Assembly (NCBI GenBank): GCA_021836865.1
Contig: JAKBHH010000019.1
Span: forward strand, 1 to 48,255
Reading direction: 5' to 3'
Length of the DNA: 48,255 bases
Origin: Acidobacteriota bacterium
GTDB lineage: Bacteria > Acidobacteriota > Terriglobia > Terriglobales > Acidobacteriaceae
Positions 16,729 to 31,239 of this stretch are shown here, piece by piece. Every line of letters begins with the position of its first letter. The first letter of the stretch is position 1. The translations under genes and the position numbers were made by a program. Below the pieces are notes generated by a model. It was not told where the DNA came from, ran no database searches, and saw nothing but the letters and a program-made list of their open reading frames with translations.

Positions 16729-19700
16729 TTGGGAACGAGTTTGGTGCGAATGGGCGGCCTTGCGGCCCTTGTGTTTGTGATGACGGCGACGGCGATGGCG
16801 GGCGCGGAGTCGCGCGACGACGCGGCGGCAATCGAGCTGAACAATCGCGGAGTTGCGCTGATGGGCCAGCAGTTCACCGAGCGGGCGGAACAGAGCTTTT
16901 CCGCTGCGTTCAAAAAGGAGCCGACGCTGGCGCAGGCGGCCATCAACGACGGCATAGCGCTGATGACGCTGCAAAAGCTGCCCGAGGCCGAGAAGGCGCT
17001 GAAGGCGGCACTGGCGCTGGATCCCGGCAATCCGCAGGCGTGGTACAACCTGGGATTGGTGCAGCACGCAAACAACGATCTGGATGCGGCGCTGGCCAGC
17101 TTTCAGCAGGCCGTGAAGTACGATCCGCGCGACGTGGATTCGTACTATTTTGAGGGCGTTTGCTACCAGGAGATGCGCCAGTTCGATCAGGCAATCGCGG
17201 TGCTGAAGCAGGCGCTGGCGATTCAGCCTCTCCATGCCTCATCGGAATTTGCCATGGCGCGCGCTCTACAGCGCTCCGGGCATACGCAGGACGCGAAAGC
17301 GCATTTCATACTCTTTCAGCACATGACCAGCACGAAGATTTCCGCGGCGATCGGGCTGGCCTATGGCGAGCAGGGCCACTATTCGACTGTGACGCCGGTA
17401 GAGGAGCCGCAGCAGGTTGAGCGGGAGATGATTCCGGTGAAGCTGGAAGCGCAGAAGATGGGTTCCGGCGCAGCGCACGGCGGCGAGACCGGTGGGGCAT
17501 GCATGTTGGACGTGACCGGGTCAGGCGAGATGGACCTGGTGCTGATGGAATCGGGCGCGCAGGCGATGCGCGTGCTGCATCGGCGTGCCGACGGCGCCTA
17601 TGAGGAACTGGATGCAGCGGCAGCGGGACTGAAAGCGGCGGGTCGTGCGGTGGCATGCACCGTGGGCGATTATGACGCCGATAACCTGAATGATCTGGCC
17701 GTGGCGATGGAGGATGGCGTTCGGCTGTTCCGGAATCTGGGCCAGGGGAAGTTTGCCGATGTGACGGCAGAGGCCGGGCTCACCGCGCGCAATCGACCCA
17801 CTGGTATCACATTTGTGGACTTCGACCACGATGGTGATCTGGATCTGTTTCTGACCGGCGAGCCGCTCAAGCCGGGCGACGAAGCGAATGTGCTTTGGCG
17901 CAACAATGGCAACAAGACTTTTACGGAGTGGACGGAACCGACGGGTCTGGGTGGCAGTGGTAAGACCGCTGCGGTCATTTTGACGGACTTCAATAACGAT
18001 CGCGCCGTGGATCTTGCGGTGACAGGCTCTGCAGCTGCGCCCATGTTTTATGTGAATCCCCGCGAGGGCAAGTATCCCACGCAGGCGTTGTATGACGAGA
18101 AGCTGCCCGCGACGGAAGGCATAGCGGTGCTGGACTACAACAAGGACGGCTGGATGGATATTGCCGTCACGCACGCGTATGCCCCGGGCCTTACGCTGTG
18201 GCGCAACGTGCCCGGACCGAACAACGTGGGCCGCCGCTTTGAGCGCGTGCCGCTTCCTCTGAAGGGTGCGCTGGGCGGATGGGGCGTTACGGCCGTCGAC
18301 ATCGACAACGATGGCTGGATTGACATTGCCGCGATTGTGCAGACGAGCGCGGGACCGCGCGTCAAGGTGTTTCGCAACCGCGGCGATGGCAGCTTTGAAG
18401 ATGTGAGCCATGTGCTGGGTCTGGATACAGTGCGGCTGCAAGCGCCGCGCGGGCTGATGGCCGCCGATGTGGACGGCGATGGAGCGGCGGATCTGATAGT
18501 GACGCAACTGAATGCGCCGCCGGTGTTGTTGCACAACGCAGGCGCGAATAAAAACCACTTTGTGCGGCTTGACCTGAGTGGTTATGCGGATAACAAGACC
18601 GCGCTGGGTTCAAAGGTGGAGATCTTTGCCGACGGCCAGTGGCAGAAGTGGGAGCTGGCAGGGGCGTCGGGCTACCAGACGCAGGCTGCGCCACAGATTC
18701 TGATCGGACTGGGCAAGGCGGATCACATCGATCTGCTCCGCATTCTTTGGCCCACCGGCATTCTGCAGGATGAGATCGACCTGCCGCATCAGCGGGTGAT
18801 TGCCATGAAGGAAGCAGACCGGCGCGGCAGTTCCTGCCCTGTGCTGTTTGCCTGGAACGGGCACAGGTACAAGCTGGTGACAGACGTGATCGGCGCCGGT
18901 GTAGTGGGGCACTGGTTTACGCCCACGCGCCGCAATACGCCCAATCCAAGCGAGTGGATCAAAGTGGACGGCGCGCAGGCGGTTCCGGTGGATGGCAAGC
19001 TGAGCCTGCGTTTCATCGAGCCGATGGAAGAAGTGAACTACATTGACCAGTTGCGGCTGGTGGCGGTGGATCATCCGGAAGATGTCGAGGTAAATCCCGA
19101 TGAGAAATTTCTCGACGATCCGCCATTTGCGACGGGGCGCGTGGTTGCCTCGCAGGGCGCGCGGCTTCCGGTCGGCGCGTGGGATGGCGAAGGGCGCGAC
19201 GTACTCGCCACCTTGAGCCACCGCGATCACGAATTTGCCAGCGGTTTTGCTCCGCTACCCTATGACGGATTTGCAAATACGCACGCGCTGACCCTGGACC
19301 TGGGTCTTGTGAATGCGGGCGCACCGTTGCGGCTGCTGATGACTGGTTATGTGAACTACTTCAGCGCAACGTCGTTGTATGCCGCGTGGCAGGCGGGGGT
19401 GAAGCCCATCTCGCCGTATGTAGAGGCGCAGTTGCCGAGCGGCGCATGGCAGCGGATTCCCGGCGAAGCGGGCTTTCCGGCAGGGTTGGAGCGCACCATT
19501 GTGGTGGACCTGACCGGCAAGCTGCCCGCGGGTACGCGTCGGATCCGGCTGATCAGCAACCTGGAAATTTATTGGGACCAGGTTCTGGTAGACAACCATG
19601 CGGATGCCCAGGTGCGCGCGACGGAGATGCCGCTGGCGCTGGCTACCGAACAGTTCCGCGGCTATCCAAAACAGTTGGACGGCGCTAGCCCCGGCGACCT

Positions 19701-20175
19701 GGACTATGACTACAATCGCGTGAGCCTCACCGGGCCATTCCAACATCAGCGCGGCAGCTATACGCATCTGGGCGACGTGACAGAACTGGTGAAGGGTATC
19801 GATGACCGCTATGCCATCTTCGGCAGCGGCGAGGAGATCGCAGCAGAGTTTGACGGGACGAAACTGCCCGCGCTGCCGGCTCACTGGAAGCGCGACTACT
19901 TGTTCTATGCCAATGGATATGTGAAGGACATGGACTGGTGGGATGCGTCGCCCTTTACGGTTTCGCAACTGCCCTTCCATACGATGAGTGCCTATCCATA
20001 CCCGGCGAGCGAGAAATTTCCGGACGATACAGACGCGCTGAACTATCAAATGGACTGGAACGATCGCTTTGATACCGGCGAGCCAGTGCGGTCGTATCGA
20101 TTCGATTACCAGTGGCTGCCGTCGACGCCGAAGGATGATGCGGCGGCAACGCCGAGTGCGGCAGACAAGCCATGA
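16729..20175 (+). CDS. Secreted TPR + FG-GAP/CRTAC1 + ASPIC/UnbV giant protein
   Basis: The 1148-residue protein has a signal peptide (about residues 1-28) and tetratricopeptide repeats at about 35-200 (EKALKAALALDPGNPQAWYN). A multi-bladed FG-GAP/VCBS propeller follows at about 255-600 with calcium-loop motifs such as DFDHDGDLDLF, DYNKDGWMDIA, DIDNDGWIDIA and DVDGDGAADLI. An ASPIC/UnbV domain spans about 609-690 (ALGSKVEIFADGQW). The last 450 residues start with SSCPVLFAWNGHRYKLVTDV and match no domain I can name. The protein should act outside the cytoplasm, probably as a binding or scaffold protein. TTG 16729 follows a GGAGAAG; GTG 16744 and ATG 16750 are alternatives. It overlaps the amidase gene by four bases. 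Confidence 0.88.
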   Translation: MGTSLVRMGGLAALVFVMTATAMAGAESRDDAAAIELNNRGVALMGQQFTERAEQSFSAAFKKEPTLAQAAINDGIALMTLQKLPEAEKALKAALALDPGNPQAWYNLGLVQHANNDLDAALASFQQAVKYDPRDVDSYYFEGVCYQEMRQFDQAIAVLKQALAIQPLHASSEFAMARALQRSGHTQDAKAHFILFQHMTSTKISAAIGLAYGEQGHYSTVTPVEEPQQVEREMIPVKLEAQKMGSGAAHGGETGGACMLDVTGSGEMDLVLMESGAQAMRVLHRRADGAYEELDAAAAGLKAAGRAVACTVGDYDADNLNDLAVAMEDGVRLFRNLGQGKFADVTAEAGLTARNRPTGITFVDFDHDGDLDLFLTGEPLKPGDEANVLWRNNGNKTFTEWTEPTGLGGSGKTAAVILTDFNNDRAVDLAVTGSAAAPMFYVNPREGKYPTQALYDEKLPATEGIAVLDYNKDGWMDIAVTHAYAPGLTLWRNVPGPNNVGRRFERVPLPLKGALGGWGVTAVDIDNDGWIDIAAIVQTSAGPRVKVFRNRGDGSFEDVSHVLGLDTVRLQAPRGLMAADVDGDGAADLIVTQLNAPPVLLHNAGANKNHFVRLDLSGYADNKTALGSKVEIFADGQWQKWELAGASGYQTQAAPQILIGLGKADHIDLLRILWPTGILQDEIDLPHQRVIAMKEADRRGSSCPVLFAWNGHRYKLVTDVIGAGVVGHWFTPTRRNTPNPSEWIKVDGAQAVPVDGKLSLRFIEPMEEVNYIDQLRLVAVDHPEDVEVNPDEKFLDDPPFATGRVVASQGARLPVGAWDGEGRDVLATLSHRDHEFASGFAPLPYDGFANTHALTLDLGLVNAGAPLRLLMTGYVNYFSATSLYAAWQAGVKPISPYVEAQLPSGAWQRIPGEAGFPAGLERTIVVDLTGKLPAGTRRIRLISNLEIYWDQVLVDNHADAQVRATEMPLALATEQFRGYPKQLDGASPGDLDYDYNRVSLTGPFQHQRGSYTHLGDVTELVKGIDDRYAIFGSGEEIAAEFDGTKLPALPAHWKRDYLFYANGYVKDMDWWDASPFTVSQLPFHTMSAYPYPASEKFPDDTDALNYQMDWNDRFDTGEPVRSYRFDYQWLPSTPKDDAAATPSAADKP

Positions 20176-21584
20176 ATGATGTTGTGTTTCAACCGGCAGT
20201 GCGGCAACTGGCGTTATTGAGCACGGGCGCGATCTCGGTCGAAGAACTTGCCGAGGCGCACATCCACCAGATTGAGCGGTTGAACCCGAAACTGAATGCG
20301 CTGGTGGACTTCGACCCGAATCGCGTGCGGGTGCAGGCGCGGCAGCTCAATGAGATGCGCGGCGCCCGCGGTGCGCTGTTTGGGCTCCCGGTGACGGTGA
20401 AGTCGTCCATTGCCACGGCGGGGTATCGCTGCGAGATCGGCAGCCTGCTTCATCAAGACGAGATTCCGCGTGAGGATGCAGTCGTGGTCAGTCGGCTGCG
20501 CGCGGCCGGAGCACTGATTCTGGGCACGACCAATTGCCCGGAGTTTCTGATGGCCTATGAGACGGCGAACCTGCTGCATGGGCGCACGGCGAACCCATGG
20601 GATCTGGAGCGCACGCCGGGCGGGTCAAGCGGCGGCGAGTCGGCGGCGATTGCGGCGGGGATGTCGGCTGCGGGCCTGGGCTCGGATAGCGGCGGCTCGG
20701 TGCGTGTGCCCGCGCACTTCACCGGGATCTGCTCACTGAAGCCGACGCCGGGCCGGATTCCTGCGCGAGGGCATCTGCCACCGTGCGTGGGGCCCTTCTC
20801 TGTGCTGGGCGCAATTGGGCCTATGGCACGGACGATGGAAGATGTGATGCTTCTGTTTCGCACGCTTGCCGGTCAGGATGCAATCGACCCGGTGAGTCCC
20901 CCTGTAGTGCTACGCGAGCCGGGTCTCGATGAACTGCGCCGCAACACCATCGGATTTTTTGAAGAGGATGGGTTGACGCCCGTGACGCCTGAGACGCGCG
21001 CCGCGGTCCATGCCGCAGCAAACGCTCTGCGCGAGGCAGGTTTCCGCGTGCAGCCTTTCCGGCCGCGCACGCTGGAGCCGCTGCGCAAGCTGTGGTGGAA
21101 GCTGTTTGTGCAGTGCGGCGCTATGTTCTATGCGCCGGCGATTGCCGGCAAAGAGCAGCAGCTCAGTCCGATCTTCAATGAGTTTCTGCGCATTGCTGAG
21201 GCCACGCCCCAGTTCACGGCTGCGCAGTTGCTCAACGCCTGGGCGGAGTTGGATCTGCTGCGCGCCAAAGCGCTGGAAGAGATGCAGGCGCATCCGGTGC
21301 TGTTATGCCCGGTGGCCAGTATTCCCGCGTTTCGTCACGGAGAGCGCCAATGGACCGTGGAGGGCCGTACCGTTGACTATCTGGATGCAGTGCGGCACAC
21401 GCAGTGGTTCAACACCCTGGCGGCTCCGGCGGCGGTGGTGCCCGTGGGGCGCTCGCCGGAAGGTTTGCCGATCGGCGTGCAAATTGTTGCCCGGCCCTTT
21501 GAAGATGAGACGGCGCTGGGTATTGCTGGCATCGTAGATAATGCGTTTGGCTATCGCGTGCCGCCCCTGGCCAATCACTCATAG
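20172..21584 (+). CDS. Amidase-signature family hydrolase
   Basis: This 470-residue protein carries the complete Ser-cisSer-Lys triad of the amidase signature family: K77 (VTVKSSIA), S152 (PGGSSGGESAA) and the nucleophile S176 (SDSGGSVRVP). The S152-S176 spacing of 24 equals that of fatty-acid amide hydrolase. The family hydrolyses carboxamides to acids and ammonia, and GatA is a relative. No signal peptide is visible, so it is probably cytoplasmic. No gatB or gatC is nearby, which argues against a tRNA amidotransferase role. Its start codon overlaps the stop of the giant upstream gene (ATGA, 20172-20175), so the two should be translated together. The substrate is unknown. Confidence 0.93.
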   Translation: MNDVVFQPAVRQLALLSTGAISVEELAEAHIHQIERLNPKLNALVDFDPNRVRVQARQLNEMRGARGALFGLPVTVKSSIATAGYRCEIGSLLHQDEIPREDAVVVSRLRAAGALILGTTNCPEFLMAYETANLLHGRTANPWDLERTPGGSSGGESAAIAAGMSAAGLGSDSGGSVRVPAHFTGICSLKPTPGRIPARGHLPPCVGPFSVLGAIGPMARTMEDVMLLFRTLAGQDAIDPVSPPVVLREPGLDELRRNTIGFFEEDGLTPVTPETRAAVHAAANALREAGFRVQPFRPRTLEPLRKLWWKLFVQCGAMFYAPAIAGKEQQLSPIFNEFLRIAEATPQFTAAQLLNAWAELDLLRAKALEEMQAHPVLLCPVASIPAFRHGERQWTVEGRTVDYLDAVRHTQWFNTLAAPAAVVPVGRSPEGLPIGVQIVARPFEDETALGIAGIVDNAFGYRVPPLANHS

Positions 21585-21759: not shown

Positions 21760-22637
<878 letters not shown>

Positions 22638-22641
<4 letters not shown>

Positions 22642-24035
22642 GGGGCCGGGCCAGCGCTTTTGGAATTGCAATTAGTTTTACGTTGCTACTGGCGCCGTGC
22701 GGGTTCGCGTCCGATGCGGCGGCAAGGGTTGGCGCGGATGTGATTGTGACTGCTGCACCCGTCTATGTGCCGCTGGCCGAGTTGCGCGGGCAGGAGCGTT
22801 TTCCCAAAGGCGCGCAGTTGCTGCTGCTTCATGAAGGCCATGCCGAGCCGCTGGTGCCGGGCTTTGCGGCCAGCGCCGATGCCAACGTCTACTTTGATGG
22901 CCGTCTGGTGCTTTTTGCGGGCAAGCAGCTTACAAGCGACCCCTGGCAGATATGGGAGCTGAAACTGAAGGACCGCTCGGTGCGCAAGGTGGTGGCGACG
23001 GCTACAGATGCAGAGCGGCCGCTCTACCTGCCTGCGGGCCGCATGGTGTATGCGGTGCGTACGACGCACGGGTTCCGGCTCGACTCTACGGAAGACGGTC
23101 ACCCCTTGCCCTACACTCCTTTGAATCCGACGGCGGGACCGGGCGAGTTGGCTCTCTCTTACACGCAAGCCAATGCGTTCCCTGCGGACGTATTGAAGGA
23201 TGGCCGCGTTCTTTTTGAAGCCGGCTATCCGCTCGGCTCCGGAACGACGCCGGAGCTGTACCTGGTTTATGCGGATGGCTCGGGCGTGGAATCGTATCGC
23301 TGCGATCACGGCCGTGCACGCTGGGGCGGCGTGCAACTGTCGTCGGGCGATGTGGCGTTTACGCATGGAGTATCACTGGCACGGTTTACTTCGCCGTTGG
23401 CGCATGAAGAGCGTATTGCCGCGCCGGCTGCGCAGTATGCCGGCGCAATCGCCGAGACGGCGTCGGGAGATTGGCTGTTGAGTACGCGCGCGTCGGCCAA
23501 CGGACCCTATGTCCTGAAGCTGTGGAAGCCGGGCGCTGCTGCGATGGAGACCGTGCTGGCGAAGAACGGCGAGAGCCTTGTTGAGCCGGTACTGGTTGCG
23601 CCGCGCACGACGCCCAAGCGGCATCCCTCAGGTCTGCACCCGTGGGACTATGCCAATCTGCTGGCGTTGGATGCGCGACTGTCGCGGGATGGCGTGCTGC
23701 ATGGAACGCCTGTTGCGGTGCGTGTGGAGACGCAGGATGCGGCGCACCATGCTGTTGTGATGGGCACGGCGCCGGTCGAGAAAGACGGCTCGTTTTTCGT
23801 GCAGGTGCCGGGCGACACACCGATTCGGTTCGCGCTGCTGGATGCGAAGGGAGCGGTATTGCGCCAGGAACACGGCTGGTTCTGGTCGCGCGGCGGGGAA
23901 CAGCGCATCTGCGTAGGCTGCCACACGGGTCCTGAGCGCGCGGCAGAAAATCGAGTGCCGGCGGTGCTCCTGCGCACGACGACGCCTGCTGACATGACTC
24001 ATGCCGCGCAGCATGCATTAACGGGAGGCCGCTGA
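22638..24035 (+). CDS. Exported mono-haem protein with hydrazine-synthase-alpha-like middle domain
   Basis: The protein (465 residues) has a signal peptide (about 1-24), a propeller-like part (about 50-330; [43 protein letters not shown]), then a domain resembling the HzsA middle domain. The latter contains [33 protein letters not shown] and the [11 protein letters not shown] tail of that family. The haem c motif CVGCH spans 425-429. In anammox HzsA the haem iron is held by a tyrosine four residues after the motif histidine; here that position is glutamate (H429, E433). The C-terminal dihaem-like part of HzsA is absent. It should be a periplasmic c-type cytochrome. Start codon overlaps the DAHP synthase stop by four bases. 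Confidence 0.72.
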
Positions 24036-24036
24036 G

Positions 24037-25737
24037 ATGATAAAGAACATTCCAATTGCATTCGCCGCGGTCCTTCTTTTTGCAGCGCATCCGGCACTAG
24101 GGGCGCAGGCTGCCGCAGCTCCATCCCCTGCACAGGACGCGCGGGCTACGCCGCCCACGTCTGCCGGCGCACAGGCTCCCGTCATTCGCTTTGAAGACGC
24201 AAGCGACAAGGCGCACATCAACTTTGTGCATAGCTTCGGGTCGGCAAAACTGGGTTCGCTGCTGGAAGGCACCGGCGCGGGCTGCGTGTGGTTCGATTAC
24301 AACAACGATGGACTGCCCGACCTCTACGTGGTGAATGGTCGGCCGCTTGACGATTCGATGCACCCGTATCCGCTGAAAGAGAAGCCAGACCCGCTGCCGC
24401 ACAATTATCTCTATCGCAACAACGGCGACGGTACCTTCACGGACGTGACGGAGAAGGCCGGCCTGGCGCCCGATCTCTATGGAGTTGCCGTTACGGCGGC
24501 TGATTACGACAACGATGGATACGTCGATCTGCTGGTGACCGGTTACGGGCGTGTGATTCTCTATCACAACGACGGCAACGGCCACTTTACAGACGTGACG
24601 GCGAAGGCCGGCATTAAAGTCGATGGATGGTCGATCAGCTCAACGTTTCTGGACTACGACCGCGATGGCTGCGTTGACATCTTCATTGGCCGCTATGTGA
24701 AGTTTGACCCCAAGTACCGCGCCTTTTACGGAGCGGACAACTATCCGGGGCCGCTTGACTACGAGGGCGAGACCAATCGGCTCTACCACAACAATTGCAA
24801 TGGCACGTTCACCGATGTGACGGACAAGTCGGGCATCGGCGCCTATGTGGGCCGCACCATGGGGGTGACGGCGGCGGACTTCGATGGCGATGGATGGGAC
24901 GACATCTATGTGGCCAACGACCGCACGGAGAATTTTCTCTTCCACAATAAGCATGACGGAACCTTTGAAGAGGTAGGGAACGATACGGGCACGGCCTTTG
25001 GGCAGAATGGCGAGTCCACCTCGTCGATGGGTCCGGTATTTGCCGATCTGGAAGGACGAGGCACGCTGGACCTGTGGGTGACCGATGGGCATTACAACCG
25101 GCTGCTGCGGAACATGGGCAAGCAGGGATTCGACGACATAGGCGCGACCAACGGCGTGTCGCAGGCCAACGCGCAGTATGTCAGTTGGGGAACGGGCGTC
25201 TATGACTTCGACAACGATGGTCTTCTTGACATCCTGATCTTTCATGGTGGGCTGATTCACCTGATTCCGCAGGAACACACACTGTTTCGCGGGCTTGGTG
25301 AGGGGCGCTTCGAGGATGTTTCGCGGGAGGCGGGCGCGGTGCTGAATAAGCGCACGGTGGCGCGGGGTGCGTGCTTTGCGGATTACGACAATGACGGAAA
25401 GATGGATGCGTTTCTGGTGAATCTGGGTGCGAAGGGGACGCTGGTGCATAACGTTTCCACGAACACCGGCCACTGGGTAGCGATCAAGCTGAAGGGCACG
25501 AAGAGTAATCGAGATGGCATTGGCGCGCGCGTCGAGGTGTATGCGGCGGGCAAGCGCTACATGGAGGAGCGCGTAGCGGAATCCGGCTATCTTTCGCAAA
25601 ACGACGATCGCCTGCACTTTGGCCTGGGTGCCGCGACGACGGTGGAGAAGCTTGTGGTCCACTGGCCCAGCGGGCGCGAGCAGACGGTGTCTGGCCAGGG
25701 TGTGGATCGTGTTCTGACGGTGGAGGAGCCGCAATGA
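24037..25737 (+). CDS. CRTAC1/ASPIC-UnbV family FG-GAP propeller protein
   Basis: An exported 566-residue protein with a signal peptide (about 1-23). The FG-GAP repeat propeller has calcium-loop motifs DYNNDGLPDLY, DYDNDGYVDLL, DYDRDGCVDIF, DFDGDGWDDIY, DFDNDGLLDIL and DYDNDGKMDAF. An ASPIC/UnbV domain ends the chain (about 480-566; GIGARVEVYAAGKRY, VEKLVVHWPSGREQ). The family binds calcium and is thought to serve in adhesion or protein assembly; no enzyme activity is established. The gene starts one base after the previous stop, with a GGGAGG ribosome site inside the end of the preceding gene, and overlaps the following gene by four bases. It is a smaller relative of the giant protein at 16729-20175. 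Confidence 0.93.
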   Translation: MIKNIPIAFAAVLLFAAHPALGAQAAAAPSPAQDARATPPTSAGAQAPVIRFEDASDKAHINFVHSFGSAKLGSLLEGTGAGCVWFDYNNDGLPDLYVVNGRPLDDSMHPYPLKEKPDPLPHNYLYRNNGDGTFTDVTEKAGLAPDLYGVAVTAADYDNDGYVDLLVTGYGRVILYHNDGNGHFTDVTAKAGIKVDGWSISSTFLDYDRDGCVDIFIGRYVKFDPKYRAFYGADNYPGPLDYEGETNRLYHNNCNGTFTDVTDKSGIGAYVGRTMGVTAADFDGDGWDDIYVANDRTENFLFHNKHDGTFEEVGNDTGTAFGQNGESTSSMGPVFADLEGRGTLDLWVTDGHYNRLLRNMGKQGFDDIGATNGVSQANAQYVSWGTGVYDFDNDGLLDILIFHGGLIHLIPQEHTLFRGLGEGRFEDVSREAGAVLNKRTVARGACFADYDNDGKMDAFLVNLGAKGTLVHNVSTNTGHWVAIKLKGTKSNRDGIGARVEVYAAGKRYMEERVAESGYLSQNDDRLHFGLGAATTVEKLVVHWPSGREQTVSGQGVDRVLTVEEPQ

Positions 25738-27641
25738 GCGGACAGGCACATGGCCGGCTGCGGGCCGGTGCGGTGGGTGGAATGCTGCTGATTGCCGCGG
25801 CATTCTTTGCCGTGGCGCTGTGGACCGGCGACGAAGCACAAGCCGTGATCACGGGGCGTGTCGGCGACCCGCTCGTCTATCCATCGCCCATTGAATTGCT
25901 CTATTCGCCAAGCGGAACACAGCTCTATGTATTGTGTAACGAGAGCGACGAGTTGCGGGTATTGGATGCCGCTACCGGTGCGGCAATCAAGAGCATTCAA
26001 GTGGGTCACATCCCACGCGGCATCTCGCTCTCGCCGGATGGAAGCCGCCTCTTTGTAACCAACACATGGGACGACACGCTTTCGGTGATCGATACCGCGT
26101 CGCTGCAAGTGGTGGCGGAATGGCCGGTGGGAGCGGAGCCTTCCAGTGTGGTTGAGGATCGCGCGGGCAAGCACCTATTTGTGGCCAATCGCATTTCCAA
26201 TGACGTGGCGGTGCTGAATGCCCGGACCGGAGCGGAGGAAAAGCGCCTGGTCGCAGGGCGTGGCGCCAGCTACATCACACCGTCGCCCGATGGAAGCCGC
26301 CTCTACGTCACTCATGTGTATCCGAACCCGACCCCCCACCGGACTGCTCCGGAGTCAGAGATCACGGTGATCGATACTGCGCGCGCCGTGGTGGTTGATC
26401 GCATTCCTCTGCACAGCATTGCCCACTCGTTTCATCTTGCGTTCTCGCGTGACGGGCGTCTTGGCGTGGTGGCCGAGATGCATCCCAAGAACCTCGTACC
26501 CCTGGCGCATCTGGAGCACGGCGGCGCATTCGTGGATACGCTGACGTTGTTCGGCACGGATGTAGGCGACAAGCCGGTCGAGGTTCCGCTCGACGAGCTG
26601 GAGCGTTATGCCGCACGGCCTTTTGGTGTGCTGATTACGCCGGACAAGAAGTTCTTGTACGTTACCAGCGAAGGCTCAGAGATTGTGACCGTGGTCGATG
26701 TGCCGCGGCTGCTGCGTTACATCCACACCCATCAAGGTCCGTTTGCCGAAGATCTTTCGGCGAGCGGGAACTACGTGGTGACGCGCATCGCGGTGGGGCA
26801 CGATCCGCGTGGCATGGCACTTAGCCCGGATGGAAGTAAGCTGCTGGTGGCGAACAGGCTTGAGGATACGATCAGCGTCATCGACACGCATACCAACCAT
26901 CTCGCGTCGACCGTCCGTCTGGCAGCGCCGAAGCAGATGTCGGTGCTGCGGCATGGTGAGCAGACGTTCTATACCGCGCGCTACTCATTTCAGGGGCAGA
27001 TCGCCTGTGCGAACTGTCATATCGACTCCACGTTCGATGGCTTGCAGTGGGATCTGGAGCCGGATGGATTTGGACGCGACATTGTGGACAATCGTCCGAT
27101 TGAGGATCTCAAGGGTACCGAACCCTACAAGTGGAACGGCGGTAATCCGAATTTGCCGACCGAGTGCGGCCCGCGCACGGAGAAGTACTTCTGGCGCTCG
27201 GAGCAGTACGACGATCTGACGCTATCCGATCTTGTGACATACATTCAGAGTCTGCCTCCGCGGCCTAATCGATATAAGCTGCCCGGCTACGAATTGACGC
27301 CCGCGCAGGAACGCGGCAAGGCGCTCTTTGTGCGTGCAGTGGATAAGTTTGGCGCTCCAATCCCTCTGACAAATCGCTGCGTGTATTGCCACAGCGGGCC
27401 CAAGGGGACGAATCAGAAGTCGTTTGACGTGGGAACGAAGAAGGCGACGGATGACTCAGGATTGCTGGACACGCCGCAACTGACGAACATAGCACTGTCA
27501 GCGCCATATCTGCACGATGGGTCCGCTTCCTCGCTGGAAGAGATATGGACCGTCTTCAATCCGGAAGACAAACATGGACGAACAAACGATCTGACCAAAG
27601 ATGAACTCAACGACCTGATCGAGTATTTGAGGACGCGATGA
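25734..27641 (+). CDS. YVTN/YncE-type beta-propeller fused to MauG-like dihaem cytochrome domain
   Basis: The 635-residue protein starts with a membrane anchor or signal (about 12-30). A seven-bladed YVTN-type propeller follows at about 45-415 (GTQLYVLCNESDELRVLD, GSRLFVTNTWDDTLSVID, GSKLLVANRLEDTISVID). The C-terminal part resembles dihaem cytochrome c peroxidase/MauG, with haem motifs CANCH at 425-429 and CVYCH at 549-553 and the family end motif APYLHDGSASSLEEI. In anammox bacteria HzsB (propeller) and HzsC (MauG-like) have this pair of folds, fused in some species. The protein should lie in the periplasm and transfer electrons or oxidise a small molecule. It overlaps both neighbours by four bases. 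Confidence 0.9.
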   Translation: MSGQAHGRLRAGAVGGMLLIAAAFFAVALWTGDEAQAVITGRVGDPLVYPSPIELLYSPSGTQLYVLCNESDELRVLDAATGAAIKSIQVGHIPRGISLSPDGSRLFVTNTWDDTLSVIDTASLQVVAEWPVGAEPSSVVEDRAGKHLFVANRISNDVAVLNARTGAEEKRLVAGRGASYITPSPDGSRLYVTHVYPNPTPHRTAPESEITVIDTARAVVVDRIPLHSIAHSFHLAFSRDGRLGVVAEMHPKNLVPLAHLEHGGAFVDTLTLFGTDVGDKPVEVPLDELERYAARPFGVLITPDKKFLYVTSEGSEIVTVVDVPRLLRYIHTHQGPFAEDLSASGNYVVTRIAVGHDPRGMALSPDGSKLLVANRLEDTISVIDTHTNHLASTVRLAAPKQMSVLRHGEQTFYTARYSFQGQIACANCHIDSTFDGLQWDLEPDGFGRDIVDNRPIEDLKGTEPYKWNGGNPNLPTECGPRTEKYFWRSEQYDDLTLSDLVTYIQSLPPRPNRYKLPGYELTPAQERGKALFVRAVDKFGAPIPLTNRCVYCHSGPKGTNQKSFDVGTKKATDDSGLLDTPQLTNIALSAPYLHDGSASSLEEIWTVFNPEDKHGRTNDLTKDELNDLIEYLRTR

Positions 27642-28732
27642 AAAAAATCTTCGTGACGGCATTCTTTCTGTCGGCCAGCCTGCTGGCCTCCGCGGCGCCG
27701 GCTGATGTACCCAAAGCTGGCGCGGTTCCCAATATGCCGCGGTTCCGGTTTGAGAATTTTTCCACCGCCAATGGCTTGCCCGACAATCACGTCTACGCCG
27801 TACTGGTGGATGGGGATCGTATTTGGGCGGGAACCAATAATGGGCTGGGACTCTACGAGAACGGCAAGTGGAAGGTGTTCACTACAAAGGACGGCCTGGC
27901 GCATCGTGCGGTGCTTTCGCTGGCGCTGGACAAGAACACCGGGGATGTTTGGGCAGGGACGATGGGAGGGTTGAGTCGCATATCCGGCGGCCAGATTAAA
28001 ACCTACACGCAGTTGAATTCGGGGCTGAGCAACGACGTTGTATACGGGGTATCCATTGAAGGCGAAGACGTATGGGTCGCTACCGCGGCTGGTGCGTGCA
28101 GACTGAACCTTCGCACAGGCGCGTGGGACCTCTACAACGAGCGCAATACGCCGATGGTCGAGATCTGGGTTTACGGGGTTAGCGCTACACCTACGAAGGT
28201 CTATTTTGCGGTATGGGGCAGCGGCATTTTGGAATACGACCAAAAGACCAAGGCCTGGGACAAATACGAGGATCCCGATGGCGAAACGGAACTTGTGCTC
28301 TTCAAGGACCAGGGGCTGATCCACGAGATCACAACGTCAGTCAGCTATGTGGACCATGTGCTGTGGGCGGCAACCTACTTTGGCAACAGCCGCTACGACG
28401 GCCGCTACTGGCACAACTTCTTGATGAAGGACAGCGGGCTGCCTTCGAACTTTACCAACGCGGTGAAGGGAGTGGACGCCAATCGGGCGTGGTTTGGTAC
28501 TGACAACGGCCTGGCGTACTACGACGGCACAAACTGGGCTGTCTATCGACCATCTCTCACCACACATAAGCCGGAGATGACAGTGCGCGACGCCGCGGGC
28601 CATGTCACGGAAATCCCGGTGACGTCAGCGCCGGCACACAACTACATCCTCGGTATTGACTTTCAGGGCAAGGATATCTGGGTGGCGACTGCCGAAGGGT
28701 TGAGCCACGGAATCTTTCAACCGCAAGAATAA
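27638..28732 (+). CDS. Periplasmic two-component-regulator-type (Reg_prop) beta-propeller protein
   Basis: The protein (364 residues) has a clear signal peptide (MKKIFVTAFFLSASLLASAAPA). Repeats of the Reg_prop type follow: DNHVYAVLVDGDRIWAGTNN, LGLYENGKWKVFTTKDGL, DVWAGTMGGLSRI, NAVKGVDANRAWFGTDNGL and KDIWVATAEGLSHG. In hybrid sensor kinases this propeller forms the periplasmic ligand-binding part; here no kinase or membrane part follows, so it should be a free periplasmic protein. It overlaps the propeller-dihaem gene by four bases. The TAA stop of this gene merges with the TAAGGAG ribosome site of the RidA-like gene. Function is unknown; a binding or scaffold role within the cluster is inferred. 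Confidence 0.88.
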   Translation: MKKIFVTAFFLSASLLASAAPADVPKAGAVPNMPRFRFENFSTANGLPDNHVYAVLVDGDRIWAGTNNGLGLYENGKWKVFTTKDGLAHRAVLSLALDKNTGDVWAGTMGGLSRISGGQIKTYTQLNSGLSNDVVYGVSIEGEDVWVATAAGACRLNLRTGAWDLYNERNTPMVEIWVYGVSATPTKVYFAVWGSGILEYDQKTKAWDKYEDPDGETELVLFKDQGLIHEITTSVSYVDHVLWAATYFGNSRYDGRYWHNFLMKDSGLPSNFTNAVKGVDANRAWFGTDNGLAYYDGTNWAVYRPSLTTHKPEMTVRDAAGHVTEIPVTSAPAHNYILGIDFQGKDIWVATAEGLSHGIFQPQE

Positions 28733-28741
28733 GGAGCCAAC

Positions 28742-29251
28742 ATGATGCAGGGAATTGCAGAAGTTCTGGAGTCTATTGGGCGCGCGCCAATCCAAAAGCG
28801 TGCTATGACCAACCACGGTGTATTGAATGAGGCCTACTGCTACGACAAGCCGAGTTCGTTTTCACGCGGGATGCGCATCGACCTGAATGGGTTGACGATC
28901 CTGCTGATTTCGGGCACGGCGTCGATCGACGAGAATGGCGTCAGCGTCCATATCGGCGACTTCCGCGCGCAGATGCGGCGGACTCTGAAAAACATTACCG
29001 CGCTGCTGGAGAGCGAAGGCTGCACCTGGCACGACATTGTGCGCACCAGTTGCTATCTGCGCGACATAGACCGCGATTACGACGCCTTCAATGAAGAGCG
29101 CACGTCGTTTTTCAAGGAACAGGGACTTGATCCGCTGCCGGCATCCACGGGCATCCAAGCCAAACTATGTCGGCCTGAGCTGCTGGTGGAGATTGAAGCC
29201 ATCGCCATGTTCCGCACGGAAAAGACCTGCTGCCATAACCACAAGGAGTAG
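28742..29251 (+). CDS. RidA/YjgF-family protein lacking the catalytic arginine
   Basis: The 169-residue protein has a chorismate-mutase-like fold of the RidA/YER057c/UK114 family: GDFRAQMRRTLKNITALLESEG, DIVRTSCYLRDIDRDYDAFN and the ending LLVEIEAIAMF. RidA proteins hydrolyse reactive enamine/imine intermediates, and the residue that does this is an arginine just before the conserved Ser/Thr (ARST in RidA). Here the segment reads LPASTGI, so the arginine is missing and imine deaminase activity is doubtful. The protein is about 40 residues longer than usual, at both ends, and ends in a cysteine/histidine-rich tail (TCCHNHKE). There is no signal peptide. It is the only clearly cytoplasmic small protein in the late part of the cluster. 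Confidence 0.9.
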   Translation: MMQGIAEVLESIGRAPIQKRAMTNHGVLNEAYCYDKPSSFSRGMRIDLNGLTILLISGTASIDENGVSVHIGDFRAQMRRTLKNITALLESEGCTWHDIVRTSCYLRDIDRDYDAFNEERTSFFKEQGLDPLPASTGIQAKLCRPELLVEIEAIAMFRTEKTCCHNHKE

Positions 29252-29256
29252 CTCAC

Positions 29257-31239
29257 ATGCGCAAGGGATGGTTGTTGGCGGCCTGCGTTGGCGCCGTGTG
29301 CGCGGTCATGGGCGCGGGACAAACCACGGCCAAGGGAACGTGTGCGTGCGGGGCGCATCCTCCCGGACCGCCGAAAGACCGCACGGTGGAGCCCTATGCG
29401 GGCGAACCGGCGGATCTGAGTCCGTATGAGAAATTCTCGAAGCCGTATTACCTCTATTACACGCATCCCAACATTTACACAGGGTCGGGGCGTGATATTC
29501 CCGACCCGAAGAACCTGACCGAAGTGCGTATAGGATTTTTAGGGCCCATCGAAAACAATCCGGATCAGGTGTCTGGATTGCGGATGTTACACGGGGCGCA
29601 ACTGGCAGTGGAAGAGGCCAACGCGCGCGGCGGGTATGGCGGCAAACCCTTCCGGCTGATGTTGCATAACGACTACAACAACTGGCAGGCGAAGGCATCC
29701 TATGGCCCGGAACGGCCGACTGACCCCGGCATCTGGGGCTCGCCGTCGGATGAAGCGGTGAAGATGGTCTACGACGACCAGGACTGGGCGATCTTCGGTT
29801 CCATCAACTCCGAATCGACGCATATCATCCTGCGCGTAGCTCTGAAGGCCGAGATCCCGATTGTCAACTCGGCGTCGACCGATCCCACCATTCCTGAGAC
29901 CTATATTCCGTGGTATTTCACCGATCTGCAGGATGATCGTGTGCAGTGCTTCACGCTGGCGCGGCGCATCTTCACCGAGCTCGACCTGAAGCGCGTGGGG
30001 ATCTTGCGCGTGAACAACCGCTACGGGCGAATGGGAGTGGGCAAGTTCCGTGATGCCTCGCGAAGGCTTGGCCATCCGGTGGTGATCGAGCAGAAGTATT
30101 TGCCGGGCGATACCGACTTTACGCGGGAACTGAAAATTATTCAGGGATCGCGCACGGATTCCATTGTGTTGTGGGCCGACGAAACAGAAACCGCCAATAT
30201 CTTGAAACAGATGAAGTCTCTCGGCATGAAGCAGCGCGTCTTTGGCTCCTATCGCACGCTGGGGCCTGACATGCTTGCCGCTGCGAGTTCTGCGGCGGAA
30301 GGCTTCGAGGCGGTATTTCCATATAATCCGACGCGCAAAGATCCGCGCTGGATTGCCTTCAACCAACGCTTTTTGGCGCGCTACCATGAGCCTCCGGAGC
30401 AGTTCGCTTCCCTGGCCTACGATGCGATGAATGCGTTGCTCGATTCAATTTGCGCCGCCGGGTTGAACCGCGCGCGCATTCACGACGCACTTGCCGATAT
30501 CCAGGAGTACGACGGCGTAACCGGGCACATGGTCTTCGATCCAAACCAGAAGAATGTTGCGCCCATGTATCTGGGTACGGTCCACAACGGGGCGATCAGC
30601 TACAAGCTGGCGACAATGGACAAGGAGCGCGCCGCGCAGCCGTCCGCTGGGGAGAGCGCATTTTCAGTCCAGAGGACTGAAGATGCGTCCGTGACACCCT
30701 ACGCGCGGGTGGGCGAGGATGGTGTCAGTTATGCAGGGCCGCAACGTCCGGATGTGCCCGCCGGGCCGGTGCGCGTGGTTTTGTTTGGACCCGGAGCAAA
30801 TCTGGTGGTGGAATCGGCTGCGGTGCAAAAGCAGTTAACGGCGGGCAAGACGAGCGGCCGGGCATGGGAGTTGCTGCCGGTGGCAAGCGATCAGAACTGG
30901 GGCGCGGCATCCACGCAGCTTGTCCATGCGCTGTGGGACGAGAACGCACTCGCGATTATTGCGTTGGATCGCAACGCCGCGCATCTGTCGGAACAACTCG
31001 CGCTGAAAGCCTTTGTGCCGGTGGTCGCCCTGAGCGATGACAAGGCGCTGACTTCAACCAACGTCCCGTGGATCTTTCGATTACCTGCCGGCACTGAACC
31101 TGCAGCGGCACTGCGAATGGTGCAGACGGCGGAGGCACGCAGCGGCGCCAACCCGGAGCGGCTGCGGGATGTGCTTGCTTCCGGCGACGACGTTGCCGGG
31201 GCGGCGTTTCTTTCAACAGGTGAGCCGCGCCAGCATTGA
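29257..31239 (+). CDS. Orphan branched-chain-amino-acid/amide-type periplasmic binding protein with extra C-terminal lobe
   Basis: A 660-residue exported protein. A signal peptide (about 1-24) is followed by a short cysteine- and proline-rich stretch (TCACGAHPPGPP). A complete type I periplasmic binding domain spans about 88-455 (VRIGFLGPIENNPDQVSGLR, GAQLAVEEANARGGYGG, WAIFGSINSESTHI, SLAYDAMNALLD). The last 160 residues look like a second, partial Rossmann lobe of the same fold (VRVVLFGPGANLVVE, IAIIALDRN-like strands, FVPVVALSDD). The family captures amino acids, amides, urea or aromatic compounds for ABC importers, but no permease or ATPase gene is present. The ribosome site AAGGAG lies in the last codons of the RidA-like gene. 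It is the last gene before a strong hairpin. Confidence 0.9.
   Translation: MRKGWLLAACVGAVCAVMGAGQTTAKGTCACGAHPPGPPKDRTVEPYAGEPADLSPYEKFSKPYYLYYTHPNIYTGSGRDIPDPKNLTEVRIGFLGPIENNPDQVSGLRMLHGAQLAVEEANARGGYGGKPFRLMLHNDYNNWQAKASYGPERPTDPGIWGSPSDEAVKMVYDDQDWAIFGSINSESTHIILRVALKAEIPIVNSASTDPTIPETYIPWYFTDLQDDRVQCFTLARRIFTELDLKRVGILRVNNRYGRMGVGKFRDASRRLGHPVVIEQKYLPGDTDFTRELKIIQGSRTDSIVLWADETETANILKQMKSLGMKQRVFGSYRTLGPDMLAAASSAAEGFEAVFPYNPTRKDPRWIAFNQRFLARYHEPPEQFASLAYDAMNALLDSICAAGLNRARIHDALADIQEYDGVTGHMVFDPNQKNVAPMYLGTVHNGAISYKLATMDKERAAQPSAGESAFSVQRTEDASVTPYARVGEDGVSYAGPQRPDVPAGPVRVVLFGPGANLVVESAAVQKQLTAGKTSGRAWELLPVASDQNWGAASTQLVHALWDENALAIIALDRNAAHLSEQLALKAFVPVVALSDDKALTSTNVPWIFRLPAGTEPAAALRMVQTAEARSGANPERLRDVLASGDDVAGAAFLSTGEPRQH

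Follow-up and report, generated by a model that had tools for sequence, protein, structure and literature searches.

The window, that is the whole stretch of 48,255 nucleotides from an Acidobacteriota bacterium analysed here, carries a gene whose product joins a YVTN propeller and a dihaem domain in one chain. Two open reading frames (ORFs) upstream of it is a gene for an HzsA-like protein. We name the two products betagamma and alpha after the subunits of hydrazine synthase (HZS) of anaerobic ammonium-oxidizing (anammox) bacteria, an enzyme long thought to be without relatives (PMC12758564). Genes for a CRTAC1-type protein, a Reg_prop propeller protein, a Rid-fold protein, a DAHP synthase and a solute-binding protein (SBP) lie around them. 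Conservation was read from three sets, A3 (53 betagamma rows), A4 (53 betagamma rows) and A5 (42 rows), A4 and A5 being hand-picked for spread. The features of the alpha and betagamma genes are as follows.

25734-27641, forward strand: HzsB-HzsC-like (betagamma) fusion, ATG start, 635 amino acids plus stop (ORF, profiles, fold)
22638-24035, forward strand: HzsA-like (alpha) protein, 465 amino acids, propeller plus middle domain, one CXXCH (profiles, fold)
23910-23924, forward strand: haem alphaI motif CVGCH (alpha residues 425-429), without Tyr591
26484-26522, forward strand: loop P251-G263, PKNLVPLAHLEHG, aligned with the HzsB tunnel loop 245-260, low model confidence
27006-27020, forward strand: haem gammaI motif CANCH (residues 425-429), 53/53 in A4
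27132-27134, forward strand: Trp467, at the gamma His144 position (MauG/CcP-type Trp), 53/53 in A4
27165-27167, forward strand: Cys478, at the position of the haem-crosslinking gamma Cys165
27378-27392, forward strand: haem gammaII motif CVYCH (residues 549-553)

The betagamma protein starts with a hydrophobic stretch (helix 3-31 in the model, a putative signal or anchor), followed by a seven-bladed propeller at about 45-392 and a dihaem domain at about 398-635. Pfam gave YVTN/lactonase propeller families, and CCP_MauG at 548-606 with 34.3 bits (cut-off 25.6). The initial annotation had described a YVTN propeller and a dihaem domain in one chain at 25734-27641, and the 635-residue ORF with these families is in agreement; the haem motifs are also where it placed them, CANCH at 425-429 and CVYCH at 549-553. 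The top NCBIfam model was the HzsBC fusion, at 178.4 bits against a cut-off of 1250, and the curated cut-offs for HZS beta (150.7 against 560 bits) and gamma (78.7 against 625 bits) were missed as well. As a control, the fused HzsBC of an anammox-type genome reached 1639.2 bits on the same fusion model.

When the single betagamma sequence was searched against the PDB, the YVTN surface-layer protein 1l0q came first (2e-41, four pieces), followed by HzsB (5c2v_B, 3.7e-37, one stretch at 49-385) and 5c2v_C (7.7e-20). With the 53-sequence A4 profile, 5c2v_B was at the top (8.9e-70), though by a small margin over the repeat-rich 1l0q (1.6e-68); the single sequence had ranked these two the other way round. 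Among dihaem structures the A4 profile matched HzsC (5c2v_C) at 1.9e-38, MbnH at 8.1e-15 and a dihaem peroxidase at 3.8e-9. The AlphaFold2 model (mean pLDDT 86.3, pTM 0.86, dihaem half less confident) had HzsB (5c2v_B) as its best structural match (Z 43.5, root mean square deviation (rmsd) 2.2, 335 residues), the next chain being at Z 35.2, and Foldseek likewise placed HzsB first. Propeller chains filled the fold lists, and HzsC was not among the rows listed; the support for HzsC comes from the sequence profile. The propeller is homologous to HzsB by profile and predicted fold, the dihaem half to HzsC by profile, and the view that the layout mirrors HzsB plus HzsC is upheld by the A4 profile, the HzsB fold and the preference for HzsC over MbnH and CcP.

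A generic YVTN-cytochrome fusion was ruled out mainly by the fold (Z 43.5 for HzsB against 35.2) together with the HzsC half. A PQQ/ABC 'ped'-type cluster, considered on account of a TIGR03866 match of the propeller, was rejected too: that match had 116.8 bits, below the cut-off of 287.3, and no such binding-protein model was found on the SBP at E 0.01.

The alpha protein matched PF18582 (HZS_alpha) at 63.7 bits (cut-off 26.6) and the curated NCBIfam HZS alpha model at 51.3 bits against a cut-off of 800. The first structural match of its model (pLDDT 88.9) was 5c2v_D (Z 31.0, rmsd 3.0, 420/465 residues aligned), taken as an HZS alpha chain from its length; TolB was next (Z 25.7 over 257 residues). 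Profile and fold thus confirm the HzsA-like gene reported two positions upstream of the fusion. The chain stops 36 amino acids past its sole CXXCH, without a haem alphaII domain, and there is a two-residue gap at the place of Ser590/Tyr591. Of the 101 motif-bearing alpha homologues (92 distinct), four have a second CXXCH and none has a Tyr at +5 to +10 of the motif, while GSY is present in 9/9 anammox alphas. L090, an open alpha piece without CXXCH, was excluded from the 101; the L117 alpha, with a stop in frame, was included there and left outside A5.

For the quick trees, 31 of the 118 betagamma loci were combined with anammox and other rows; the anammox rows came from genomes with HzsC above the curated cut-off (26/392 genomes). 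In the whole-fusion tree of 47 rows, the operon (30), anammox (8) and other (9) rows fell on one side each, with support values (SH-like approximate likelihood ratio test, SH-aLRT) of 99, 100 and 97. The same three groups, at 100 each, were obtained after adding L196-L198, the top three non-anammox betagamma scores to HzsC, which were outside the first trees, and removing the long-branched L200 and L201. On these sequences the operon family is its own clade beside anammox HZS. The initial annotation had asked for phylogenies of the two parts separately, and we made these without L200, L201, L188 and L195, and without L207 (stop in frame) in the CCP set. In the dihaem-only tree, six CCP_MauG proteins of related genomes, one of them from the window's own genome, separated at 100 SH-aLRT, and the operon, anammox and other rows were not resolved from each other. 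In the propeller-only tree the split from 11 YVTN proteins was weak (71), with one long-branched YVTN row inside. The expected separation is thus clear for the dihaem part and weak for the propeller; firm branching of both parts with unrelated peroxidases or lactonases, which would have spoken against the Hzs reading, was not what the dihaem part showed. Three Planctomycetota loci (L199, L202 and L204) contain a third betagamma-like group adjoining long alpha-like proteins (798-1316 amino acids), and these fusions are without the Cys165 equivalent and the PKN loop.

MauG and MbnH oxidise residues of partner proteins, and the dihaem half might do the same to the product of an adjacent gene, be it the CRTAC1-type protein, alpha or Reg_prop. 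CCP_MauG is above cut-off, the MbnH model TIGR04039 gave 43.4 bits, Trp467 is at the MauG/CcP Trp position and a CRTAC1-type gene was found in 73/80 loci. We nevertheless regard such a modification system as unlikely: the dihaem part sides with HzsC and not with the CCP_MauG proteins (100 SH-aLRT), the MbnH score is far under its cut-off of 362.85, and this reading has no place for the DAHP synthase and Rid.

The roles of HZS residues were taken from PMC12758564 and PMC12607021, and the numbering of the HzsB tunnel loop (245-260) from PMC12607021. Both the gammaI and gammaII CXXCH motifs are present in 53/53 A4 rows. The column of Cys478 has Cys in 49, Asp in 3 and Glu in 1 of 53 rows in A4, and Cys in 43, Asp in 9 and Glu in 1 of 53 in A3. 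In the tree set it has Cys in 22, Asp in 7 and Glu in 1 of 30 operon rows, Cys in 8/8 anammox rows and a gap in 9/9 rows of the other group. By comparison with gamma Cys165, haem gammaI is probably crosslinked to Cys478. The exchange of this Cys is solely for Asp or Glu (10/53 in A3, 4/53 in A4), and because acidic residues can also attach haem covalently, via ester bonds, the crosslink may be kept in these rows. The PKN loop Asn253 is found in 30/30 operon, 8/8 anammox and 0/9 other rows. Trp467 replaces gamma His144 in 30/30 operon rows of the tree set. The gamma Asp168 column (482) is Thr in the window and Thr, Leu, Ile or Ala across relatives, with Asp in 0/53. The column of the beta tunnel loop Glu, which we take to be number 253 and which was equated with the Mg-binding Glu by numbering offset, is His259 in the window; operon rows have His, Gln, Arg, Ser or Thr, and anammox rows have Glu (8/8).

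Since haem alphaII, Tyr591, His144, Asp168 and the loop Glu are gone and the curated cut-offs are far missed, the cluster almost certainly encodes an HZS-type homologue and not a hydrazine synthase. Of the alpha/beta/gamma set held plausible in the initial annotation, the homologous partners encoded together remain; a working HZS does not, given the missing residues, the missed cut-offs and the separate clade. That the cluster is a genuine hydrazine synthase, or another N-N bond former, outside anammox bacteria would be extremely improbable. The fold, the fused betagamma layout, the Cys165 equivalent and the tunnel loop are all kept, and an HAO-family octahaem gene occurs elsewhere in the own genome. 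However, Tyr591 is absent from all 101 alphas with a motif, haem alphaII is missing from the window alpha, Trp, Thr and His stand in place of His144, Asp168 and the loop Glu, the HZS cut-offs are missed, and on the hydrazine dehydrogenase model the octahaem protein reached 66 of the 900 bits required. The main text of Hagglund et al. 2025 (PMC12758564) also turns down hydrazine synthesis for such homologues and judges their key HZS residues not conserved. Anammox in the own genome was ruled out by the residues, the cut-offs and the 66 of 900 bits of the sole PF13447 protein, the hydrazine dehydrogenase model not having been run genome-wide. This octahaem HAO-family protein is encoded on another contig (G000:C89:24828-25664; locus L236:1285-2526), has 8 CXXCH motifs and matches PF13447 at 92.1 bits; its nearest solved chain is 4qo5, followed by HAO types.

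The neighbouring genes in the window are given below.

24037-25737, forward strand: FG-GAP/UnbV_ASPIC (CRTAC1-type) secreted protein, between alpha and betagamma (profiles)
27638-28732, forward strand: Reg_prop propeller protein, conserved partner (profiles, neighbourhood)
28742-29251, forward strand: Rid-fold protein, 169 amino acids, chorismatase-type residues SGTAS and CRPELLVE (profiles, motifs)
29257-31239, forward strand: Peripla_BP_6 (LivJ-like) SBP (profiles, neighbourhood)
21760-22641, forward strand: DAHP synthase, TIGR01361 above cut-off (NCBIfam)
20172-21584, forward strand: amidase, mostly in close relatives (22/80 loci) (profiles, neighbourhood)
16729-20175, forward strand: TPR-FG-GAP-UnbV protein, mostly in close relatives (23/80 loci) (profiles, neighbourhood)

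The junctions between these genes are 4-base overlaps at four places, one of them between the DAHP synthase 3' end and the alpha start, and gaps of 1-9 bases at three. The gap from amidase to DAHP synthase is 175 bases with the start as called. A promoter and terminator scan of the locus was uninformative, its sites being no more numerous than in shuffled sequence.

Neighbourhoods were compared in 37 loci of relatives and in 80 loci, the best 80 of at least 538 related stretches; the two sets have nine records in common. The recurrent order is alpha, CRTAC1, betagamma, Reg_prop, Rid, (DAHP synthase), SBP, and in the window's genus the DAHP synthase is placed before alpha. In the 80 loci, many of which are cut short, tblastn at E 1e-8 or better found betagamma in 80, Reg_prop in 76, CRTAC1 in 73, SBP in 69, alpha in 68, Rid in 63 and DAHP synthase in 43 (both of the latter in 39), TPR-UnbV in 23 and amidase in 22. 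The 39 loci of at least 20 kb had CRTAC1 in 39, alpha, Reg_prop and SBP in 38 each, Rid in 34 and DAHP synthase in 27. Among 60 genomes searched, own included, 36 had a strong betagamma (>150 bits), 37 had HZS_alpha and 36 had both (Fisher p 1e-15); one of the 36 betagamma genomes (G058, locus L048) belongs to the 'other' clade. From sequence and models, it is likely that alpha and betagamma work as one complex. In the 37-locus set, L036 (alpha, betagamma and Rid) and L048 (alpha and betagamma) are exceptions to the recurrent order.

Some loci depart from the window in other ways. In L028 and L058 the betagamma ORFs are longer and have two added haem motifs (CNSCH, CGTCH) N-terminal to the propeller. 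Extra-haem betagamma proteins occur in the window's genus with CRTAC1 still in between (L038, L040, L041), and likewise in L036 without CRTAC1. This last locus (L036:6871-14871, G010, same genus) is a compact second cluster of alpha, extra-haem betagamma and a two-domain chorismatase-like Rid, flanked on both sides by ResA-like thiol oxidoreductases; a CRTAC1 search gave no match there. A Crp/Fnr-type regulator gene is upstream of alpha in L042, L043, L047, L117, L122 and L135, named by profile in L042 and by similarity to it in the five others, hinting at redox or oxygen control.

The Rid-fold protein and the DAHP synthase bear on the possible substrate. SGTAS and CRxxL[LM]xE are present in 93/93 complete Rid-like ORFs (85 distinct) from this collection of loci, among them that of the window; these ORFs were collected by similarity to operon Rids and are no independent sample, and L098 and both L117 pieces were left out. 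In alignment with 5ag3 (VSGTAS, VCRSDLLVEIE) the operon Rids match Gly240, Cys327 and Glu334 of the chorismatase Hyg5, the first two numbers being transferred by the Glu325/334 offset and the third subfamily residue, Gly164, being outside the comparison. Glu-334 is the essential acid of Hyg5, and a Gly and a Cys are among the subfamily residues (PMC7170507). The column of RidA Arg105, which has a catalytic role (PMC4433059), is Leu in the window Rid, with an Arg two columns on, and the register may slip here. In a Rid tree of 20 rows, the operon Rids grouped with FkbO, Hyg5 and two-domain relatives, apart from RidA types. These two-domain relatives adjoin the genes in L036, L127, L131 and L137 and have FkbO/Hyg5-like matches, below cut-off, in the N-domain; on the chorismatase model TIGR04444 they score 47.8, 57.8, 66.2 and 37.4, below the cut-off of 325. 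Three further Rid-type proteins of the own genome were searched for the Cys-Arg motif, and none has it. Across the 60 relatives the operon-type Rid was found in 34/35 operon genomes and 3/25 others, with L048 (G058) set aside as 'other'. The own genome has three DAHP synthases above the TIGR01361 cut-off, that of the cluster being one; because this dedicated extra copy adjoins a chorismatase-like gene, it suggests pathway supply. A second operon-type Rid of the own genome, 89% identical (L148:9508-10419, G000:C167), adjoins a CRTAC/UnbV gene, a TPR gene and a gene for an 836-amino-acid PD40-TPR protein with one CANCH, which suggests a Rid-CRTAC pairing without HZS-like genes.

We tentatively read the cluster as encoding a periplasmic HZS-like haem complex that makes no hydrazine and has a chorismate-derived substrate or product. 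By homology, electrons would pass from haem gammaII through Trp467 to haem gammaI, where, with the haem probably crosslinked to Cys478, a small substrate would be redox-activated. The propeller, whose loop is kept, would stand between the gammaI site and haem alphaI, and a second step would take place at haem alphaI, which may have ordinary His ligation because Tyr591 is missing. Judging from gene content, the complex would use or form an aromatic or cyclohexadiene metabolite derived from chorismate. In the cytoplasm, the extra DAHP synthase and the Rid-fold chorismatase-like enzyme would raise the supply of this metabolite, and the LivJ-like proteins would bind it outside.

Several observations weigh against this reading. 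The window Rid is a single domain that scores best on RidA-type models (54.7 and 52.4 bits) and reaches 34.4 bits on TIGR04444; the branches of the Rid tree are very long, and the split from RidA types is supported at 86/81 only. Some Rid copies are not beside the operon, so the phyletic profile is not all adjacency. DAHP synthase is missing from 37/80, Rid from 17/80 and both from 13/80 loci, including four loci of more than 20 kb (L096, L114, L128 and L136). Most of the 80 loci are from Acidobacteriota. The eight elsewhere are from Planctomycetota (L125, L126, L129, L134, L136, L137), Omnitrophota (L131) and Verrucomicrobiota (L133), and there Rid is found in 4/8 (L126, L131, L134, L137) and DAHP synthase in 2/8 (L125, L126); L129, the short L133 and L136 have neither. 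In L028 betagamma stands without any of the partners searched for, L123 is limited to alpha, betagamma and a GMC oxidoreductase gene, and close relatives and the nine duplicated records weigh on all counts. Because the link is patchier outside Acidobacteriota, we put the connection of the complex to chorismate, a substrate class deduced from gene content, at slightly under an even chance.

The loci without Rid and DAHP synthase (13/80) would also fit a complex that serves in stress or respiration, either as a dihaem peroxidase or in electron transfer, with these two genes as incidental passengers. The conserved Trp467, the two CXXCH motifs and the Crp/Fnr-type regulator genes upstream in some loci point the same way. 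On the other hand, Reg_prop and often Rid stay adjacent in several phyla, the Rid-type profile tracks the operon among the 60 relatives, and an HzsA-like subunit is conserved alongside (68/80 loci), which makes this explanation a doubtful one, if worth keeping in view. Taken further, the HZS-like complex with a chorismate-derived substrate or product could belong to a widespread type of periplasmic haem complex from which HZS evolved and which survives today as its sister. Such a complex would couple two redox steps on a chorismate-derived metabolite, from gammaI to alphaI by way of the propeller, and might make an N-O, N-N or C-N bond in an aromatic product; we consider this broader proposal a long shot. 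The loci show a stable gene set around HZS relatives. Should the tie to the DAHP synthase and the chorismatase-like Rid prove real, it would point experiments to a defined class of substrates and thereby open a way to the origin of HZS.

Fused betagamma and alpha homologues outside anammox bacteria are already in print: Hagglund et al. 2025 (PMC12758564) described co-located genes of this kind in clades I-IV. In their text, CRTAC1 lies between alpha and betagamma in clades I and II; in clade III it precedes alpha, and two ABC substrate-binding genes are present as well. The window shares with clade II the order alpha, CRTAC1/FG-GAP, fused betagamma, an alpha without haem alphaII and C-terminus and with the two-residue gap at Ser590/Tyr591, Trp at His144, and no extra haem in betagamma. 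It fits the clade II type by these features, an assignment that does not rest on placement in the trees of PMC12758564. The Cys165 equivalent, stated there for clade I, is present also in the clade II-like window protein, and the extra-haem betagamma proteins with CRTAC1 in between mix in a clade III trait. The main text of PMC12758564, figures and supplements aside, has no Rid, DAHP or chorismate terms, and our literature search, subscription journals, preprints, figures and supplements aside, found no chorismate link to HZS-like genes; within that scope, Reg_prop, Rid and DAHP synthase were not found in print as operon members.

MauG, CcP and MbnH have a related dihaem domain with a Trp at the position of Trp467. 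Unlike theirs, the dihaem domain of the window is fused to a propeller, has an HzsA-like partner and belongs to a clade apart from the six CCP_MauG proteins. The operon Rids match Gly240, Cys327 and Glu334 of Hyg5, whereas, unlike FkbO and Hyg5, the window protein is one Rid domain of 169 amino acids under the chorismatase cut-off. Anammox HZS consists of HzsA, HzsB and HzsC, with HzsBC fused in some anammox bacteria. The window resembles it in the alpha and beta folds, the two dihaem CXXCH motifs, the Cys165 equivalent, the PKN loop and the betagamma fusion, and differs from it in having no Tyr591, haem alphaII, His144, Asp168 or loop Glu and in its reversed gene order, with alpha upstream.

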